From: Candidatus Kapaibacterium sp.
GTDB taxonomy: Bacteria; Bacteroidota; Ignavibacteria; Kapaibacteriales; Kapaibacteriaceae
Length of the DNA stretch: 60,636 bases
Direction: 5' to 3'
Assembly: GCA_030833725.1 (NCBI GenBank)
Contig: JAURGP010000006.1
Span: 1 to 60,636 of the forward strand
Under the pieces are notes generated by a model. It ran no database searches. It saw only the letters and a list, made by a program, of their open reading frames with translations, and had not been told where the DNA came from. A program made the translations under genes and the position numbers. Below, one piece after another: positions 55,828-60,082 of this stretch (positions are counted from its first letter, which is position 1; every line of letters starts with the position of its first letter).

Positions 55828-56643
55828 ATGCCAACACCAACTACGCGGAAACGGGTCACCACCTTACGACTCGTCCAGATGAAGCGCGAGGGTACACCAA
55901 TCGCTGCCCTCACCGCCTACGATGCCCTGACGGCCGGAATCTTCGACCGTGCAGGGATCGACGTGCTGCTTGTTGGCGATTCTGTTGGAAACGTTGTTCA
56001 GGGTCACGACACCACCATCCCCGTAACGTTGGATCACATGATCTACCATACGCAGGCCGTGGTGCGCTCCGTCGAACGCGCCCTGATTGTGACAGATATG
56101 CCCTTCATGAGCTATCAGGTATCTCCGCAGGAAGCCTTGCGGAATGCCGGTCGACTGATGAAGGAGGCTGGGTGTGGCGCGGTGAAGCTGGAAGGGGGCG
56201 CGCGCGTGGTGGAATCTGTGCGGATCATGACCGAAAACGGAATTCCGGTCATGGGACATCTTGGCCTTACTCCCCAGAGCATTCACCAGTTCGGATCGTA
56301 TAAAGAGCGCGGAGCCACTACCGAAGAAGCCGATGCCATCAAGCGCGATGCCGAAGCACTCCAGCAAGCTGGTGTGTTCTCCCTTGTGTTGGAAAAGGTT
56401 CCGGCTGCACTGGCTGCCGACGTTACATCAATGGTAGACGTTCCTACGATCGGCATCGGTGCTGGTCCAGAATGCGATGGACAGATTCTGGTATGGGCCG
56501 ACATGCTAGGAGTGACGACGGAGTTCCGTCCGCGTTTTGTGCGGCGCTATGCCGAACTGGCCGACGTGATGACAGCTGCTGTGGGTGCCTACGTTCAGGA
56601 TGTGCGCGATCATAACTTCCCCACGCAGGAGGAGTCGTACTGA
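55828..56643 (+). CDS. panB: 3-methyl-2-oxobutanoate hydroxymethyltransferase
   Basis: 271 residues. PanB adds a hydroxymethyl group from methylene-tetrahydrofolate to alpha-ketoisovalerate, the first committed step of pantothenate synthesis. Motifs: IAALTAYDALTAGIFDRAGID, LLVGDSVGNVVQGHDTTIPVTLDHM (Mg-binding Asp), VKLEGG, MGHLGLTPQSIHQFG and IGIGAGPECDGQILV. Length is typical. The stop shares a base with the following cytochrome gene (TGATG), so a biosynthetic gene leads into the electron-transfer genes. Confidence 0.97.
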   Translation: MPTPTTRKRVTTLRLVQMKREGTPIAALTAYDALTAGIFDRAGIDVLLVGDSVGNVVQGHDTTIPVTLDHMIYHTQAVVRSVERALIVTDMPFMSYQVSPQEALRNAGRLMKEAGCGAVKLEGGARVVESVRIMTENGIPVMGHLGLTPQSIHQFGSYKERGATTEEADAIKRDAEALQQAGVFSLVLEKVPAALAADVTSMVDVPTIGIGAGPECDGQILVWADMLGVTTEFRPRFVRRYAELADVMTAAVGAYVQDVRDHNFPTQEESY

Positions 56644-57029
56644 TGGCTCGAGGAAGCACGTTGCCCGTTCTGCTGGCTGGGATGGTTCTTGCCAGCTGCG
56701 ACGGTGCAGGCACCATCACGAATCCGGATGACATCGTCTTTCCGGATTCCGCTGTGAGCTACCAGGCCCATGTGCAACCGTGGCTCACGTTACGGTGTGG
56801 TCCGTGTCACGGCTCGGGGAATGCTGCTGGAGGCATCAACCTTACGAACTACTCTTCGCTCCTGTTCGACCGACCCAACCTTGTCGTGCCGGGGAATCCG
56901 GATGAGTCGTTACTCTGTCAGGTACTGGAAGGCACGCTTGGCCACCCAGCAGGACAGTTCCAGTTCCTTCGCTCCGATCAAATGGCGGGCATTCGCACGT
57001 GGATCCGCGAGGGAGCCTTCAACAACTAA
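56643..57029 (+). CDS. Monoheme c-type cytochrome lipoprotein
   Basis: 128 residues. A lipobox (VLASC, Cys19) makes it a membrane-anchored lipoprotein. The heme motif CGPCH is at 52-56, in the context VQPWLTLRCGPCHGSGNAAGG typical of planctomycete-type cytochromes. The C-terminus (DQMAGIRTWIREGAFNN) fits the last helix of that family. It would act in the periplasm as an electron carrier. TGATG overlap with panB; a 60-nt gap to the next gene. Confidence 0.88.
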   Translation: MARGSTLPVLLAGMVLASCDGAGTITNPDDIVFPDSAVSYQAHVQPWLTLRCGPCHGSGNAAGGINLTNYSSLLFDRPNLVVPGNPDESLLCQVLEGTLGHPAGQFQFLRSDQMAGIRTWIREGAFNN

Positions 57030-57089
57030 CCCTAACATTGCTTCTGACGTTATCAACGTATTCAAGATCAAGGTTATTCAAGGATTAGC

Positions 57090-58106
57090 ATGCGTCCTCT
57101 TCTTATGATTGTTGCTCTGGCTGCCGCCACAGCACTTCTTGCACCGGGCTGTGCGCGCAAGGCCAAGCCAAGCACGATCGAGGCCCTCGAGCTTCGCACA
57201 GACGATGAGTCGAAGTTCGCCCTAAAAGTGCCGACCAACTGGCAGGTTCAAACCGTGCCGGGCGAATTGATCATCGCCATTTCCAACCCAGCCATCTCCC
57301 GCCGATTCCTCTCCTTCGCCGAGGGTGAAGGCGGCGCCAAGGTCGAGCTTCGTGCGATCCGCATGGATAGCACCACTGTGCTAGACTCCCTCGTGAAGAA
57401 CAGTAAGCTGGAGTTTGAAGACGGTCTGGATCGCTACGAGACTACCACCACCACGCTGGGAGGCAAATCAGCAACGAAGCTGTCCGTAAAGTTCGACCAG
57501 GCCGATGGCGAGTACCAGTCGGAATCGTACTTCGTAGAGAACGACTCCGTGATCACCATATTCACGCTTGCCTCGTTCGGCGGGAACTTCTCCGACTACG
57601 CTACAGAGTTTGAAGAGATTCTAGCCTCGGTAAAAGTTGCCGAGCGACCTGTCGTTGCTCCCGTGGTAGACACGTTAGCTCCCACCGGCCCTGAGCCCCC
57701 TTCCGATACCCTTGCACCGTACAGTGCCCAGTACTTTGCTATCAAGATTCCACAGAACTTCGATGGTGAGAAGGTTGGTACGGGGCTCGGTTCGGTAAAC
57801 TTTATCGGATCACGGCTGGACTGCAACATTCAGGTGGATGTCTTAGACGCCAGCAAGCAGAAGAATCTCGACAAGATCGTCGCCGAGAACAAGGCCACGT
57901 ACAAGAGTGAGCCAAAGTCTGTAACTCTGGGAGGAAAGCCAGCGAAGTACTTCGCCTACAACCCCTCCGGCACAGTCTCTAGCCGAGCATACTTCTGTGT
58001 CAACGGTAACAAACTGTTCCGGATTACTGTTAACTGGTACAAGCCAGAGGAGAAGGTCTACCTTCCCATCTTCGATAAGTCACTCGCCTCGATCACGTTC
58101 AAATGA
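57090..58106 (+). CDS. Lipoprotein with two related PsbP-like domains
   Basis: 338 residues. Lipobox LLAPGC (Cys21). Two similar halves (about 35-185 and 205-338) share the pattern FALKVP/FAIKIP, an acidic loop, LGGKSAT/LGGKPAK, a Tyr-rich strand and a closing LASVKV/LASITFK; this looks like an internal duplication of a PsbP/Mog1-like fold. No enzyme motif. AAGGA lies 7 nt before the ATG. It overlaps the cytochrome-porin gene by 4 nt, so the two are co-translated and may interact at the outer membrane. Confidence 0.82.
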   Translation: MRPLLMIVALAAATALLAPGCARKAKPSTIEALELRTDDESKFALKVPTNWQVQTVPGELIIAISNPAISRRFLSFAEGEGGAKVELRAIRMDSTTVLDSLVKNSKLEFEDGLDRYETTTTTLGGKSATKLSVKFDQADGEYQSESYFVENDSVITIFTLASFGGNFSDYATEFEEILASVKVAERPVVAPVVDTLAPTGPEPPSDTLAPYSAQYFAIKIPQNFDGEKVGTGLGSVNFIGSRLDCNIQVDVLDASKQKNLDKIVAENKATYKSEPKSVTLGGKPAKYFAYNPSGTVSSRAYFCVNGNKLFRITVNWYKPEEKVYLPIFDKSLASITFK

Positions 58107-59284
58107 TCCTACGCGCTCTGATCGCACTTCTTCTTGTGGCGTCGCCTACCCTGTGGGCGACGCCACAGCTTTCTTTGCTTACCGGAAACCGATGTAGCAA
58201 CTGCCATGTGGCGCCCTCCGGAGGTGGTCTCCGGAGCGAGCTTGGCTGGTATAGTTGGTATGACGTCGGCATGATCTCGCGGAATTCCGAGTTGTTTCGG
58301 TGGCTGTACCCGGCCGATGAGTCCAACACATTTTTTGATGGACTCCTCACGCTGGGCATGGATGCGCGAATTCAGTCCACGCGCTCATTCTCCTCACCCT
58401 CGGCCCAGCGCGTCACGTTCCCGATGCAGGCAACGTTGTATGCAGCCATCACGCCAATCAAGGCCATGACCGTTGAGGGGCAGTTCAACTTGGCAGCGCT
58501 GCGCAAGGCGCCGAACAGCACGTCCACCGTGACCTATGCCGGACAACGGGCGGCCATGGGCAGTGTGATTCTCACCCCTGGCGACAACCTTCCCACCGTG
58601 CGTGTGGGTCTGTTCCGACCATCCGTCGGCGTGCGCTACGACGATCACACCGTGCTGCCAGTGAACTACGTCAGTTCCACGGCTCGATTGAACTACCTCG
58701 CCCCGGACTGGGGTGAGTGGGGGTCGGAGTTAACATGGGAAGCTCAGAAGTGGTTGTCGGTGAACCTCGGGCTGTTCGGATCCGAGGGACTATCGAACGT
58801 TCGGATCAGCGACGGCCAATCGGTGATGCCACTGATCAGTGGCACATCACCGACGGTGACGGGTCGGGTAGTGGTATGGCCACAGTTCTTGGCCCAACAC
58901 CTCAACACGTACGCGGGGGGATCCGTACTGGTCAACAACGACTTCTCAATGGTGAGTGCCTTTGCGGGCGTGGGTAGAAGCGATCAGCTCTACGCCATGA
59001 TCGACTACACACAGACGGAGAAGAAGGATGTGCTTCAATCGCGCAACCTGATGGCCGAGTTGGGATGGCAGGTGTGGTCTCCCTTGATCGTGTATGCGCG
59101 GTACGAAGTGGGTCGCACCACCCAGGCGCGAAGTACGACGAGCGCAACAGTGCGCAGTATGGTGTTCGGCGCACAAGCCTTTGTGCTCCCGTACGTCGAA
59201 GTGCGCCCGGAGTATCGCATCTGGGACACTGAACTCCCCGGTGCTACAGGCCGGTGGAATGTCCAACTGCACATTTTCTACTAA
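58103..59284 (+). CDS. Monoheme cytochrome c fused to an outer-membrane beta-barrel
   Basis: 393 residues. Signal peptide about 1-19 (SPTLWA-TP). A single heme-c motif CSNCH (31-35) sits in LLTGNRCSNCHVAPSGGG. The remaining 340 residues are alternating amphipathic strands with aromatic ends (VGLFRPSVGVRYDDH, LNYLAPDWGEWGSEL, YAMIDYTQTEK, VEVRPEYRIWD) and the chain ends in aromatic HIFY, a BAM-type C-terminus. This layout is that of fused cytochrome-porins such as Cyc2 of iron oxidisers, but sequence kinship to Cyc2 was not checked. Its role would be electron transfer across the outer membrane. ATGA overlap with the upstream lipoprotein. Confidence 0.8.
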   Translation: MILRALIALLLVASPTLWATPQLSLLTGNRCSNCHVAPSGGGLRSELGWYSWYDVGMISRNSELFRWLYPADESNTFFDGLLTLGMDARIQSTRSFSSPSAQRVTFPMQATLYAAITPIKAMTVEGQFNLAALRKAPNSTSTVTYAGQRAAMGSVILTPGDNLPTVRVGLFRPSVGVRYDDHTVLPVNYVSSTARLNYLAPDWGEWGSELTWEAQKWLSVNLGLFGSEGLSNVRISDGQSVMPLISGTSPTVTGRVVVWPQFLAQHLNTYAGGSVLVNNDFSMVSAFAGVGRSDQLYAMIDYTQTEKKDVLQSRNLMAELGWQVWSPLIVYARYEVGRTTQARSTTSATVRSMVFGAQAFVLPYVEVRPEYRIWDTELPGATGRWNVQLHIFY

Positions 59285-59303
59285 CATTGAACATGAGGCT
59301 GGA

Positions 59304-59609
59304 ATGATCTGGAAGGTGTTGATGGCTCTGGCCGTAGTTGCCATCCTTGTTGGTGGTGGTGTGTGGGTGTCCGATGGTATGCAGTTCTTTACGAAGGATC
59401 GCGAGCCGATCGTTACCGTCACCAAGGACCCACTCTTCGGTACTGAAACCGAGAGTACCACGTGGGTAGAGACATTTCGATTGGGATTGCTGCCGGATGA
59501 CGCAGCCATCACCGCCGTGCATCGCTCGTACGGTTTCATCCTGGGAGTAAGCGGTGCTGTGATCATCGGCAGCTGGATCATGCTCAAACGCCATCGGACA
59601 CGTCTATGA
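59304..59609 (+). CDS. Small two-span membrane protein of the electron-transfer cluster
   Basis: 101 residues from ATG at 59304 (GAGG 5 nt upstream). Two membrane segments: LMALAVVAILVGGGVWV near the N-terminus and YGFILGVSGAVIIGSWIML near the C-terminus. The intervening 50 residues are polar and contain no Cys or His pair apart from one His. It overlaps the Rieske gene as ATGA, suggesting it anchors or partners that protein. No family recognised. Confidence 0.78.
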   Translation: MIWKVLMALAVVAILVGGGVWVSDGMQFFTKDREPIVTVTKDPLFGTETESTTWVETFRLGLLPDDAAITAVHRSYGFILGVSGAVIIGSWIMLKRHRTRL

Positions 59610-60082
59610 AGACCACGACAGAAACACGTCGGAGATTCCTCTTTCAAGCAACATCGTCGGTTGGCCTGATGCTGACCGCACCGATGATTGCAAGTATCGT
59701 CAGCGGTTGCGAAACCGATGAAACGGCTGCCCCAGATTTGAGCGGTCTGACCGTTGTCGTGGCCGATTACCCGGAGCTGTCGGTGGTAGGGGGCATCACC
59801 ACGGTTATTCTCGAGGGGTTAAACAACTCCGACCCCGTCTTCATCTCCCGCATCGACGTCAACACCTACGCCGTCTTCAGTGCCATCTGCACCCATCAAG
59901 GATGCCAAGTCTTCGATATAGACCAACAGGCAGACAGCGTTGAGTGCCCGTGCCACAACGCCCGATACGCCAAGTCCGACGGTTCAGTGGTACAGCAACC
60001 CGATAGTGGCGAGGCAACCGACTTGCCACGTTTCCCGTCGACGTTCAACAGCAGCACCGGTATTCTCACGATCAATCCGTGA
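59606..60082 (+). CDS. Tat-exported Rieske [2Fe-2S] lipoprotein
   Basis: 158 residues. N-terminus TRRRFLFQATSSVGLML is a twin-arginine signal followed by a lipobox (IVSGC, Cys35). The Rieske cluster ligands are CTHQGC (95-100) and CPCHNA (114-119), with disulphide Cys in both loops as in high-potential Rieske proteins. It would carry electrons at the inner membrane outer face. No cytochrome b gene is close, so it is not an obvious bc1/b6f subunit. Next to a monoheme cytochrome and a cytochrome-porin it may join the same chain. GTGA overlap with rsmB. Confidence 0.88.
   Translation: MKTTTETRRRFLFQATSSVGLMLTAPMIASIVSGCETDETAAPDLSGLTVVVADYPELSVVGGITTVILEGLNNSDPVFISRIDVNTYAVFSAICTHQGCQVFDIDQQADSVECPCHNARYAKSDGSVVQQPDSGEATDLPRFPSTFNSSTGILTINP

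Follow-up and report, generated by a model that had tools for sequence, protein, structure and literature searches.

A putative periplasm-to-outer-membrane electron-transfer module pairing a monoheme porin with a Rieske lipoprotein in Candidatus Kapaibacterium

The window analyzed in this study is a 60,636-nucleotide stretch of a Candidatus Kapaibacterium sp. genome (assembly GCA_030833725.1, contig JAURGP010000006.1), and close to its end, at 56643-60082 on the + strand, its open reading frames (ORFs) and their translations reveal five genes, P1 to P5, that all run in one direction. The reading that we favor, with moderate confidence, is that these genes encode a periplasm-to-outer-membrane electron-transfer module with P3 and P5 as its core, in which P3 would be a Cyc2-like porin carrying a single heme and P5 a Rieske lipoprotein acting as its relay. 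We propose more tentatively, and consider somewhat doubtful, that the pair represents an undescribed, order-wide class of outer-membrane conduit. The porin of this class, with its one heme, would share ancestry with Cyc2 or have converged on it, and would be served by a dedicated redox partner, an orphan Rieske lipoprotein that possibly resides at the outer membrane; Met108 and an Asp-Asp-His triplet in the presumed constriction loop of P3 would form the site for substrate and heme, and some families would have added multiheme and secreted cytochromes that extend the reach of the conduit.

The computed basis consists of gene content, the fold class of P3 (from a low-confidence model), conservation, linkage in relatives, the lack of a detectable cytochrome b and the presence of ActC and COX1 genes. 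From the sequences we infer heme and cluster loading, protein locations, the direction of transfer and the substrate.

The cytochrome-barrel fusion and its Rieske partner

P3 begins with a hydrophobic N terminus, recognized by eye as a signal peptide, and ends in LHIFY. Pfam and NCBIfam scans of the window proteins, with family cut-offs applied, returned no match for P3, and NCBIfam returned none above cut-off for any of P1-P5. All 25 sequences of an alignment, which comprised the window protein and 24 of 40 loci after removal of near-duplicates and of truncated or split copies, share the heme-attachment residues C31, C34 and H35. In a set of 70 non-redundant homologues, all have Met108, 69 have His182, and all are acidic at residue 181; this set was deduplicated from 98 sequences of at least 330 amino acids (aa) for which C..CH was required, and loss of the motif is therefore invisible in it. 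Conservation makes Met108 a candidate distal heme ligand and Asp180-Asp181-His182 a candidate substrate-metal or alternative ligand site.

An AlphaFold2 (AF2) model of P3 computed with ten sequences, for which the mean predicted local distance difference test (pLDDT) score is 57.5, contains 16 long strands from residue 82 onwards, two three-residue strands being left out of the count. Foldseek searches with this model matched 249 PDB chains at an E value of 0.001 or better. A structural aligner ranked OmpT first (Z 21.2, root-mean-square deviation (rmsd) 2.8, 255 residues), followed by OprP (2O4V; Z 21.0, rmsd 3.2, 271 residues) and OprO (4RJW; Z 20.7) in second and third place, Z differences of less than 1 being ties and OprP and OprO being tied with many other porins. 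The porin matches at Z 19-21 cover mainly residues 72-391, and similarity to the general 16-strand porin fold is present over the P3 barrel; the aligner comparisons for P3, as for P2 below, ran against listed structures, and an unlisted family is not thereby excluded. The 16-strand barrel that had been anticipated when this DNA was first annotated from its sequence (the original prediction) is thus borne out by 16 long strands and by matches to 16-strand porins at about Z 20, within a model of low confidence. His182 lies in a 33-residue loop between the fifth and sixth strands (pLDDT about 33-48 there), which by analogy with OmpF we take to be the constriction loop.

Against PDB sequences, P3 had no match beyond a weak one between its N-terminal part and a multiheme cytochrome (E 0.093 and E 0.62), which was not used. 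A scan of viral contigs yielded no further P3 homologues, and tblastn of P3 against plasmids yielded none. The nearest homologues on named contigs come from 'Candidatus Kapaibacterium', Ignavibacteria and other Bacteroidota metagenome-assembled genomes (MAGs); NCBI taxonomy places Kapaibacterium in the class Eximiradiia of the Bacteroidota. The P3 gene is interrupted at a few loci by a change of frame or a stop (L011/L033, at 8903-8927 in L011, and L071), through either assembly error or pseudogene formation.

The lipobox Cys and the Cys/His cluster ligands of P5 are invariant in 21 of 21 aligned sequences, and a Tat-like (twin-arginine translocation) RRxF is found in 57 of 61 distinct P5 matches. 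Fifty-four of the 61 were parsed further, the remaining seven being three cut at locus ends, one broken (genome G001), one free of ligands (G013) and two with a lengthened box II (loci L053 and L065). An additional cysteine pair (C100/C116 in P5) is present in 41 of the 54 and absent in 13, with neither cysteine ever found alone, which argues for a real disulfide where the pair is present. Two positions that tune the potential of the bc1 Rieske protein are Ser and Tyr; the corresponding residues among the 54 are Ala/Phe (23), Ser/Phe (13), Ala/Tyr (7, the type in the window), Ser/Tyr (6) and others (5), and the redox potential of P5 is likely lower than that of the bc1 Rieske on this comparison of residues. 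After the lipobox Cys, 16 P5 rows from the family of the window (f1) read CExxE, and 10 of these read CExDE. Acidic residues following the lipobox Cys resemble the signals that direct Bacteroidota lipoproteins to the surface, and P5 may therefore sit at the cell surface or in the outer membrane.

Cytochrome b (PF00033, E 1e-4) was detected in none of six genomes of the genus, namely that of the window (G000; 1.98 Mb, 98.4% complete) and five others, and it was found in 24 of the 60 genomes of the order that we sampled, own included. P5 is therefore an orphan Rieske protein in G000, with no visible bc1 partner, and its assignment as a bc1 subunit was rejected. The original prediction had remarked on the lack of bc1 genes nearby, a statement that now extends, for PF00033, to the whole genome.

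Two variations on P5 were seen among the relatives. In G013 a second Rieske-like lipoprotein adjoins P5 and lacks the cluster ligands (L098:4921-5619; CTK, CPVD), possibly as a cluster-free duplicate. The lengthened forms of box II have unusual spacing (L053:6123-6629, CSFADNKCGH; L065:4708-5196, CDQPGCGH).

The heme motif of P1 relatives varies (35 distinct matches, some of them fragments), with CX2CH only in 9, CX4CH only in 16, both in 5 and neither in 5. P2 falls below the Pfam cut-off for PsbP_2 (22.8 bits against 27), and its AF2 model (mean pLDDT 81.2) has two similar domains, of which residues 206-338 give a clear fold match to cyanobacterial PsbP (CyanoP; Z 14.3, 132 residues, rmsd 2.6) and the first matches Tsi3 (Z 10.3, 121 residues, rmsd 3.7). 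P4 has no Pfam or NCBIfam match, and its hydropathy and charge suggest that it resides in the inner membrane.

Within the set, 4-nt overlaps occur at the P2/P3 (57090-58106 with 58103-59284) and P4/P5 (59304-59609 with 59606-60082) junctions. A panB-like ORF upstream of P1 overlaps it by 1 nt, and the ORF after P5, with a GTG start at 60079, overlaps the Rieske gene by 4 nt. The original prediction had listed five co-directional genes encoding a CGPCH lipoprotein, a double-domain lipoprotein, a CSNCH-barrel fusion, a two-span protein and a Tat-exported Rieske lipoprotein; each of these ORFs was found on the + strand with the features ascribed to it. It had also counted three 4-nt overlaps, two of which lie within the set, the third being that between P5 and the next ORF.

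Table 1. Positions of the P1-P5 genes and of selected residues in the window
Feature	Position	Strand	Details and basis
P1, monoheme c-type lipoprotein, PSCyt1 family	56643..57029	+	128 aa; lipobox LASC; CGPCH at 56796-56810; Pfam PSCyt1 26 bits, cut-off 22
P2, lipoprotein with two PsbP/Mog1-like domains	57090..58106	+	338 aa; lipobox APGC; AF2 model
P3, N-terminal monoheme cytochrome c and predicted 16-strand outer-membrane barrel	58103..59284	+	393 aa; AF2 model; porin matches
P3 heme-attachment motif CSNCH, residues 31-35, followed by family signature GGGxR	58193..58207	+	Alignment
P3 Met108, candidate distal heme ligand	58424..58426	+	Conservation; role inferred
P3 Asp180-Asp181-His182, candidate site of metal or heme ligation, in the long loop that joins strands 5 and 6	58640..58648	+	Conservation; low-confidence part of model
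P4, small two-span protein with conserved loop D-x-x-FGT between its hydrophobic spans	59304..59609	+	101 aa; alignment
P5, Tat-exported Rieske [2Fe-2S] lipoprotein	59606..60082	+	158 aa; RRRFLF; lipobox VSGC; CTHQGC...CPCH; Pfam Rieske 41.4 bits, cut-off 20.3
P5 Rieske box I, C95-T-H97	59888..59896	+	C95 and H97 invariant in 21/21 aligned
P5 Rieske box II, C114-P-C116-H117	59945..59956	+	C114 and H117 invariant in 21/21 aligned

Conservation and electron-transfer neighbors in relatives

P3 homologues were found in 55 of the 60 genomes of the order, and a P3 profile matched 53 of 296 genomes across the phylum, all except one of these 53 in the same class or nearer. Where an f1 relative has a full-length match, its best copy shares 48-62% identity with the P3 of the window. 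P1-P5 are all present and in order in 18 of the 22 P3-bearing f1 genomes, own included; in G015, G017 and G018, whose loci have just 1.5 kb of flank, only P1 was unseen, and the G021 contig stops within P3. Outside f1 the usual order is P3-P4-YceI-P5, and the 33 P3-bearing genomes concerned have YceI in 24 cases, P5 in 27 and P4, YceI and P5 together in 20. The YceI label derives from a PF04264 match (E 7.6e-24) on one member and was extended by a six-sequence profile. P4 lies downstream of P3 in 21/22 f1 genomes and 23/33 genomes of other families. G002 and G017, both from f1, each possess a further copy of P3 (L089, L090) in the YceI-containing order that is typical outside f1.

P5 is encoded downstream of a P3 copy, on the same strand and within 2.6 kb (center to center), in 48 of the 55 P3-bearing genomes, including the broken gene of G001, and in 9 of 10 families. 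Synteny across relatives, which had been suggested as a check on the gene set, thus bears it out, and a chance run of ORFs was rejected on the strength of this conservation and synteny. Five genomes of the order have no P3 match (G004, G023, G040, G041 and G044). A P5-type Rieske is absent from G004 and G044 at E 0.001, is good in G041 (3.1e-31) and weak in G023 (1.6e-10), and gives only weak partial matches in G040.

One family, f2, places further electron carriers beside P3 and P5. All five of its P3-bearing genomes have a lipoprotein with five or six hemes beside a P3 copy, homologues of which occur in 5/60 genomes, all of them f2. The eight copies comprise six within 250 bases of P3, one about 2.4 kb away and one on another contig. 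Three of the four lipoproteins scanned exceed the cut-off of the MtrC/MtrF domain (L050, L072 and L082), the fourth (L047) being just under it. In G046, G051 and G056 (L072, L077 and L082) the genes run P3, P5, small cytochrome c, 13-heme cytochrome and cytochrome b561, accompanied by the 5- or 6-heme lipoprotein; the small cytochrome c (PF00034) and b561 (PF01292) were each identified in the two f2 loci scanned. The b561 is fused to a part with six CXXCH motifs in G051 and G056, and in L077 (scanned; L082 unscanned) this protein has NapC-like and heme-rich parts. The run in these three genomes is apparently a complete chain from the inner to the outer membrane.

In families other than f2, P5 is followed by a long protein (about 900 residues) that has CXXCH or CX4CH in its N-terminal part (L046:10431-13151, L051:303-3092, L063, L068 and L069). 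Those of L046 and L051 contain Ig repeats, as does a similar protein of L043 that lacks a complete heme motif; only L046 has a type IX secretion tail above the cut-off. These proteins are possibly secreted surface cytochromes.

Among the eight loci examined at class level, a Rieske gene and a PSCyt1 gene adjoin P3 in one (L054, G211). Small monoheme proteins with GGGxxN, resembling the P3 N terminus, adjoin P3 in class-level loci L058 and L060; that of L058, the one scanned, ends in a type IX secretion tail.

Direction of transfer and competing explanations

The P3 barrel would hold an N-terminal segment with one covalent heme c, probably plugging the pore. A single heme cannot bridge the outer membrane in the manner of a decaheme cytochrome, so the substrate probably must enter the P3 pore, and we envisage a small reduced solute, with Fe(II) as the leading candidate, exchanging an electron with the heme inside it. 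The P3 heme would then hand the electron on to P5, the Rieske protein anchored in the membrane, and to P1, the lipoprotein with a heme, from which it would reach ordinary periplasmic cytochromes c that serve a COX1-type oxidase and alternative complex III, with P2 and P4 as presumed scaffold or anchoring parts. A COX1-family gene is present in 60/60 genomes, suggesting that these organisms are aerobes, though the family also includes NO reductases, and a gene of the NrfD/ActC family is present in 59/60. In G000 the ORF for ActC is one of several successive ORFs that appear to follow the order of alternative complex III, and coxA adjoins genes for a coxB-like protein and a monoheme lipoprotein; the genome of the window thus has a route by which periplasmic cytochromes can feed an oxidase. 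Support for the module comes, besides the barrel and heme motif of P3 and these respiratory partners, from linkage, with seven of the eight multiheme lipoprotein copies within 2.5 kb of P3, and from the joint absence of P3 and P5 in G004 and G044. We have a modest preference for the inward direction in the family of the window, because these parts are seen in its genome and because a COX1-family gene is found in all sampled genomes.

A number of observations weigh against this proposal. The P3 model is poor, with pLDDT values of 22-45 over the N-terminal 60 residues (22-33 for residues 11-60), which makes the heme position and the plug conjectural. The tuning positions of P5 are mostly Ala/Phe, pointing to a lower potential and weakening a simple high-potential chain to the oxidase. 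The near-universality of the module in the sampled order fits poorly with a specialized iron-oxidation role. Moreover, the link between P3 and P5 is not strict. Seven P3-bearing genomes have no adjacent P5: G021, G043 and G052 have contig ends there, G025, G034 and G028 lack one despite a long flank, and G054 has none in its flank of 1.8 kb. In family f4 (G025 and G034) P4 and YceI are kept and P5 is not, and in G028 and G054 a PSCyt1-type gene adjoins P3 in place of P5. P5-type Rieske genes lie away from P3 in G025, G034, G028, G054, G043 and G052, and occur without any P3 in G041. G001 retains P1-P4 intact with a broken P5 (L092:7000-7182 onward), in which a short ORF with Tat signal and lipobox is followed by stops, the end of the protein is in another frame and no Rieske boxes lie between, through either an assembly error or real loss. 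At class level, seven of the eight loci have neither a Rieske nor a PSCyt1 neighbor of P3. Nor did the genome of the window yield a hexaheme lipoprotein of the f2 type (E 1e-10; other multiheme proteins were not searched there). The b561-containing f2 clusters, finally, fit outward transfer better.

Outward transfer is the strongest competitor, which we consider possible but unlikely: quinol-derived electrons would leave the inner membrane through P5 and P1 and pass via P3 to external acceptors or to partner proteins at the surface. It draws support from the three f2 genomes that join P3-P5 with a cytochrome b561, a 13-heme cytochrome and a multiheme lipoprotein, and from the long heme-motif proteins that follow P5 in other families, with their Ig repeats (L046, L051) and type IX tail (L046). 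However, a hexaheme lipoprotein of the f2 type was not found in the window's own genome (E 1e-10; other multiheme proteins and other f2 parts were not searched there), the ubiquity of COX1-family genes suggests aerobic organisms, and a single heme without partners cannot reach an insoluble acceptor across the membrane. Since the f2 clusters with a b561 gene do fit outward transfer, the module may run either way depending on its partner. In the original prediction electrons could move between the cell surface and the inner membrane, which gains support from the f2 clusters with multiheme cytochromes, three of them with b561, and is conjectural for the genome of the window.

It is improbable that P3 is orthologous to Cyc2 in the strict sense and that the bacterium oxidizes iron. 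For Cyc2 a predicted 16-strand barrel with structural matches to 4RJW and 2O4V is reported (PMC8406198), and P3 agrees with it in architecture, strand number and porin structural matches. The same source gives as marks of Cyc2 the motif AXPXFAR[QK][TY] upstream of CXXCH and PXL four residues after it (PMC8406198). We compared these in register, with three residues between the first motif and CXXCH (a spacing that we set ourselves), in 72 P3 contexts (24 from f1, 40 from elsewhere in the order and 8 from the class; not deduplicated, and omitting fragments L033 and L071, which have no CXXCH). The Arg of the first motif is absent at its position in 72/72 contexts, and the Pro of PXL is likewise absent in 72/72, with Gly there in 71. 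An A-x-P-x-F...T-G-x-x-C-x-x-C-H skeleton is partly common to both, P3 contexts often keeping A-x-P-x-F and Thr or Ser, and several class members read L-P-R-F-A-x-R. We do not file P3 as Cyc2 because neither published motif is present. Common descent with Cyc2 is possible, because distant Cyc2 proteins reportedly share significant similarity at the N terminus only (PMC5566968). The original prediction that P3 has the architecture of Cyc2 accordingly holds for the CXXCH and the 16-strand barrel, and not for the two motifs.

Equally improbable is a reading in which P5 works for a quinol oxidase of the inner membrane, alternative complex III or another, and its closeness to P3 reflects co-regulation only. 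Rieske proteins normally work with a quinol oxidase, NrfD/ActC genes are nearly universal in the sample, and P5-type genes occur away from P3 in several genomes, all of which would fit; against it, P5 stands beside P3 in nine of ten families, and G004, which has neither P3 nor a P5-type gene, has kept its ActC gene. A non-respiratory envelope role is very improbable, in which P3 would be a redox-sensing or redox-gated porin, or the set would maintain exported proteins or lipids in reduced form, and in which the YceI and PsbP-fold proteins would act on lipids or cofactors: these partners and a near-universality suited to housekeeping speak for it, and the linkage to several dedicated electron carriers in relatives speaks against it.

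If the favored module of P3 with its Rieske relay is correct, an entire order of uncultured Bacteroidota has extracellular or pore-level electron exchange among its core traits, and a Rieske protein joins the periplasmic relays of porin-cytochromes. To our knowledge, Rieske proteins are usually confined to quinol oxidases and oxygenases. Met108, Asp180-Asp181-His182 and the Rieske disulfide provide concrete residues with which to ask how a single-heme barrel passes electrons across the outer membrane, a question that applies equally to Cyc2.

Comparison with known systems

In the open-access literature we found no report of porin, cytochrome or extracellular electron transfer systems for Kapabacteria/Kapaibacteri, and no description of a Rieske lipoprotein with an outer membrane cytochrome or extracellular electron transfer, in line with the original statement that no described system with exactly this gene set was known. 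Ignavibacteria reportedly carry putative OmbB- and MtrB-like conduits (PMC7399161), which differ from P3. With MtrCAB, PioAB and OmbB-OmaB-OmcB the present system shares an outer-membrane barrel accompanied by cytochromes, to which f2 adds an adjacent multiheme lipoprotein that is MtrC-like by Pfam in 3/4 scanned. Unlike these systems, P3 has a fused single heme, a smaller barrel and no decaheme in the pore, and for this combination of fusion, one heme and small barrel a conduit of the MtrAB type (separate porin and multiheme cytochrome) was rejected.

P5 resembles the bc1/b6f Rieske subunit in its Tat signal, both ligand boxes and, usually, the disulfide pair, but differs in being a lipoprotein encoded with a porin, with no cytochrome b gene detected, and in its tuning Ser/Tyr positions, which are mostly Ala/Phe and are Ala/Tyr in the window. 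P1 is above the Pfam cut-off for PSCyt1, a planctomycete cytochrome c domain, but in contrast to other PSCyt1 proteins it is a small stand-alone lipoprotein in a redox operon. P2 belongs with proteins of the PsbP/CyanoP/DcrB fold through its C-terminal domain, which matches CyanoP, and differs from them in carrying tandem domains on a lipoprotein.

P3 itself resembles Cyc2, the fused porin-cytochrome of Acidithiobacillus, Mariprofundus and Gallionellaceae, the presence of which in Chlorobi is reported to be a later acquisition (PMC9342728). Like Cyc2, P3 has a signal peptide, a single N-terminal CXXCH, a predicted 16-strand barrel and a length of about 400 aa, matches OprO and OprP structurally, and is found in a host genome with alternative complex III. 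Unlike Cyc2, P3 has its own GGGxR signature together with the conserved Met108 and Asp-Asp-His, and the gene partner of P3 is a Rieske lipoprotein, whereas the partner described for Cyc2 is rusticyanin or Cyc1.

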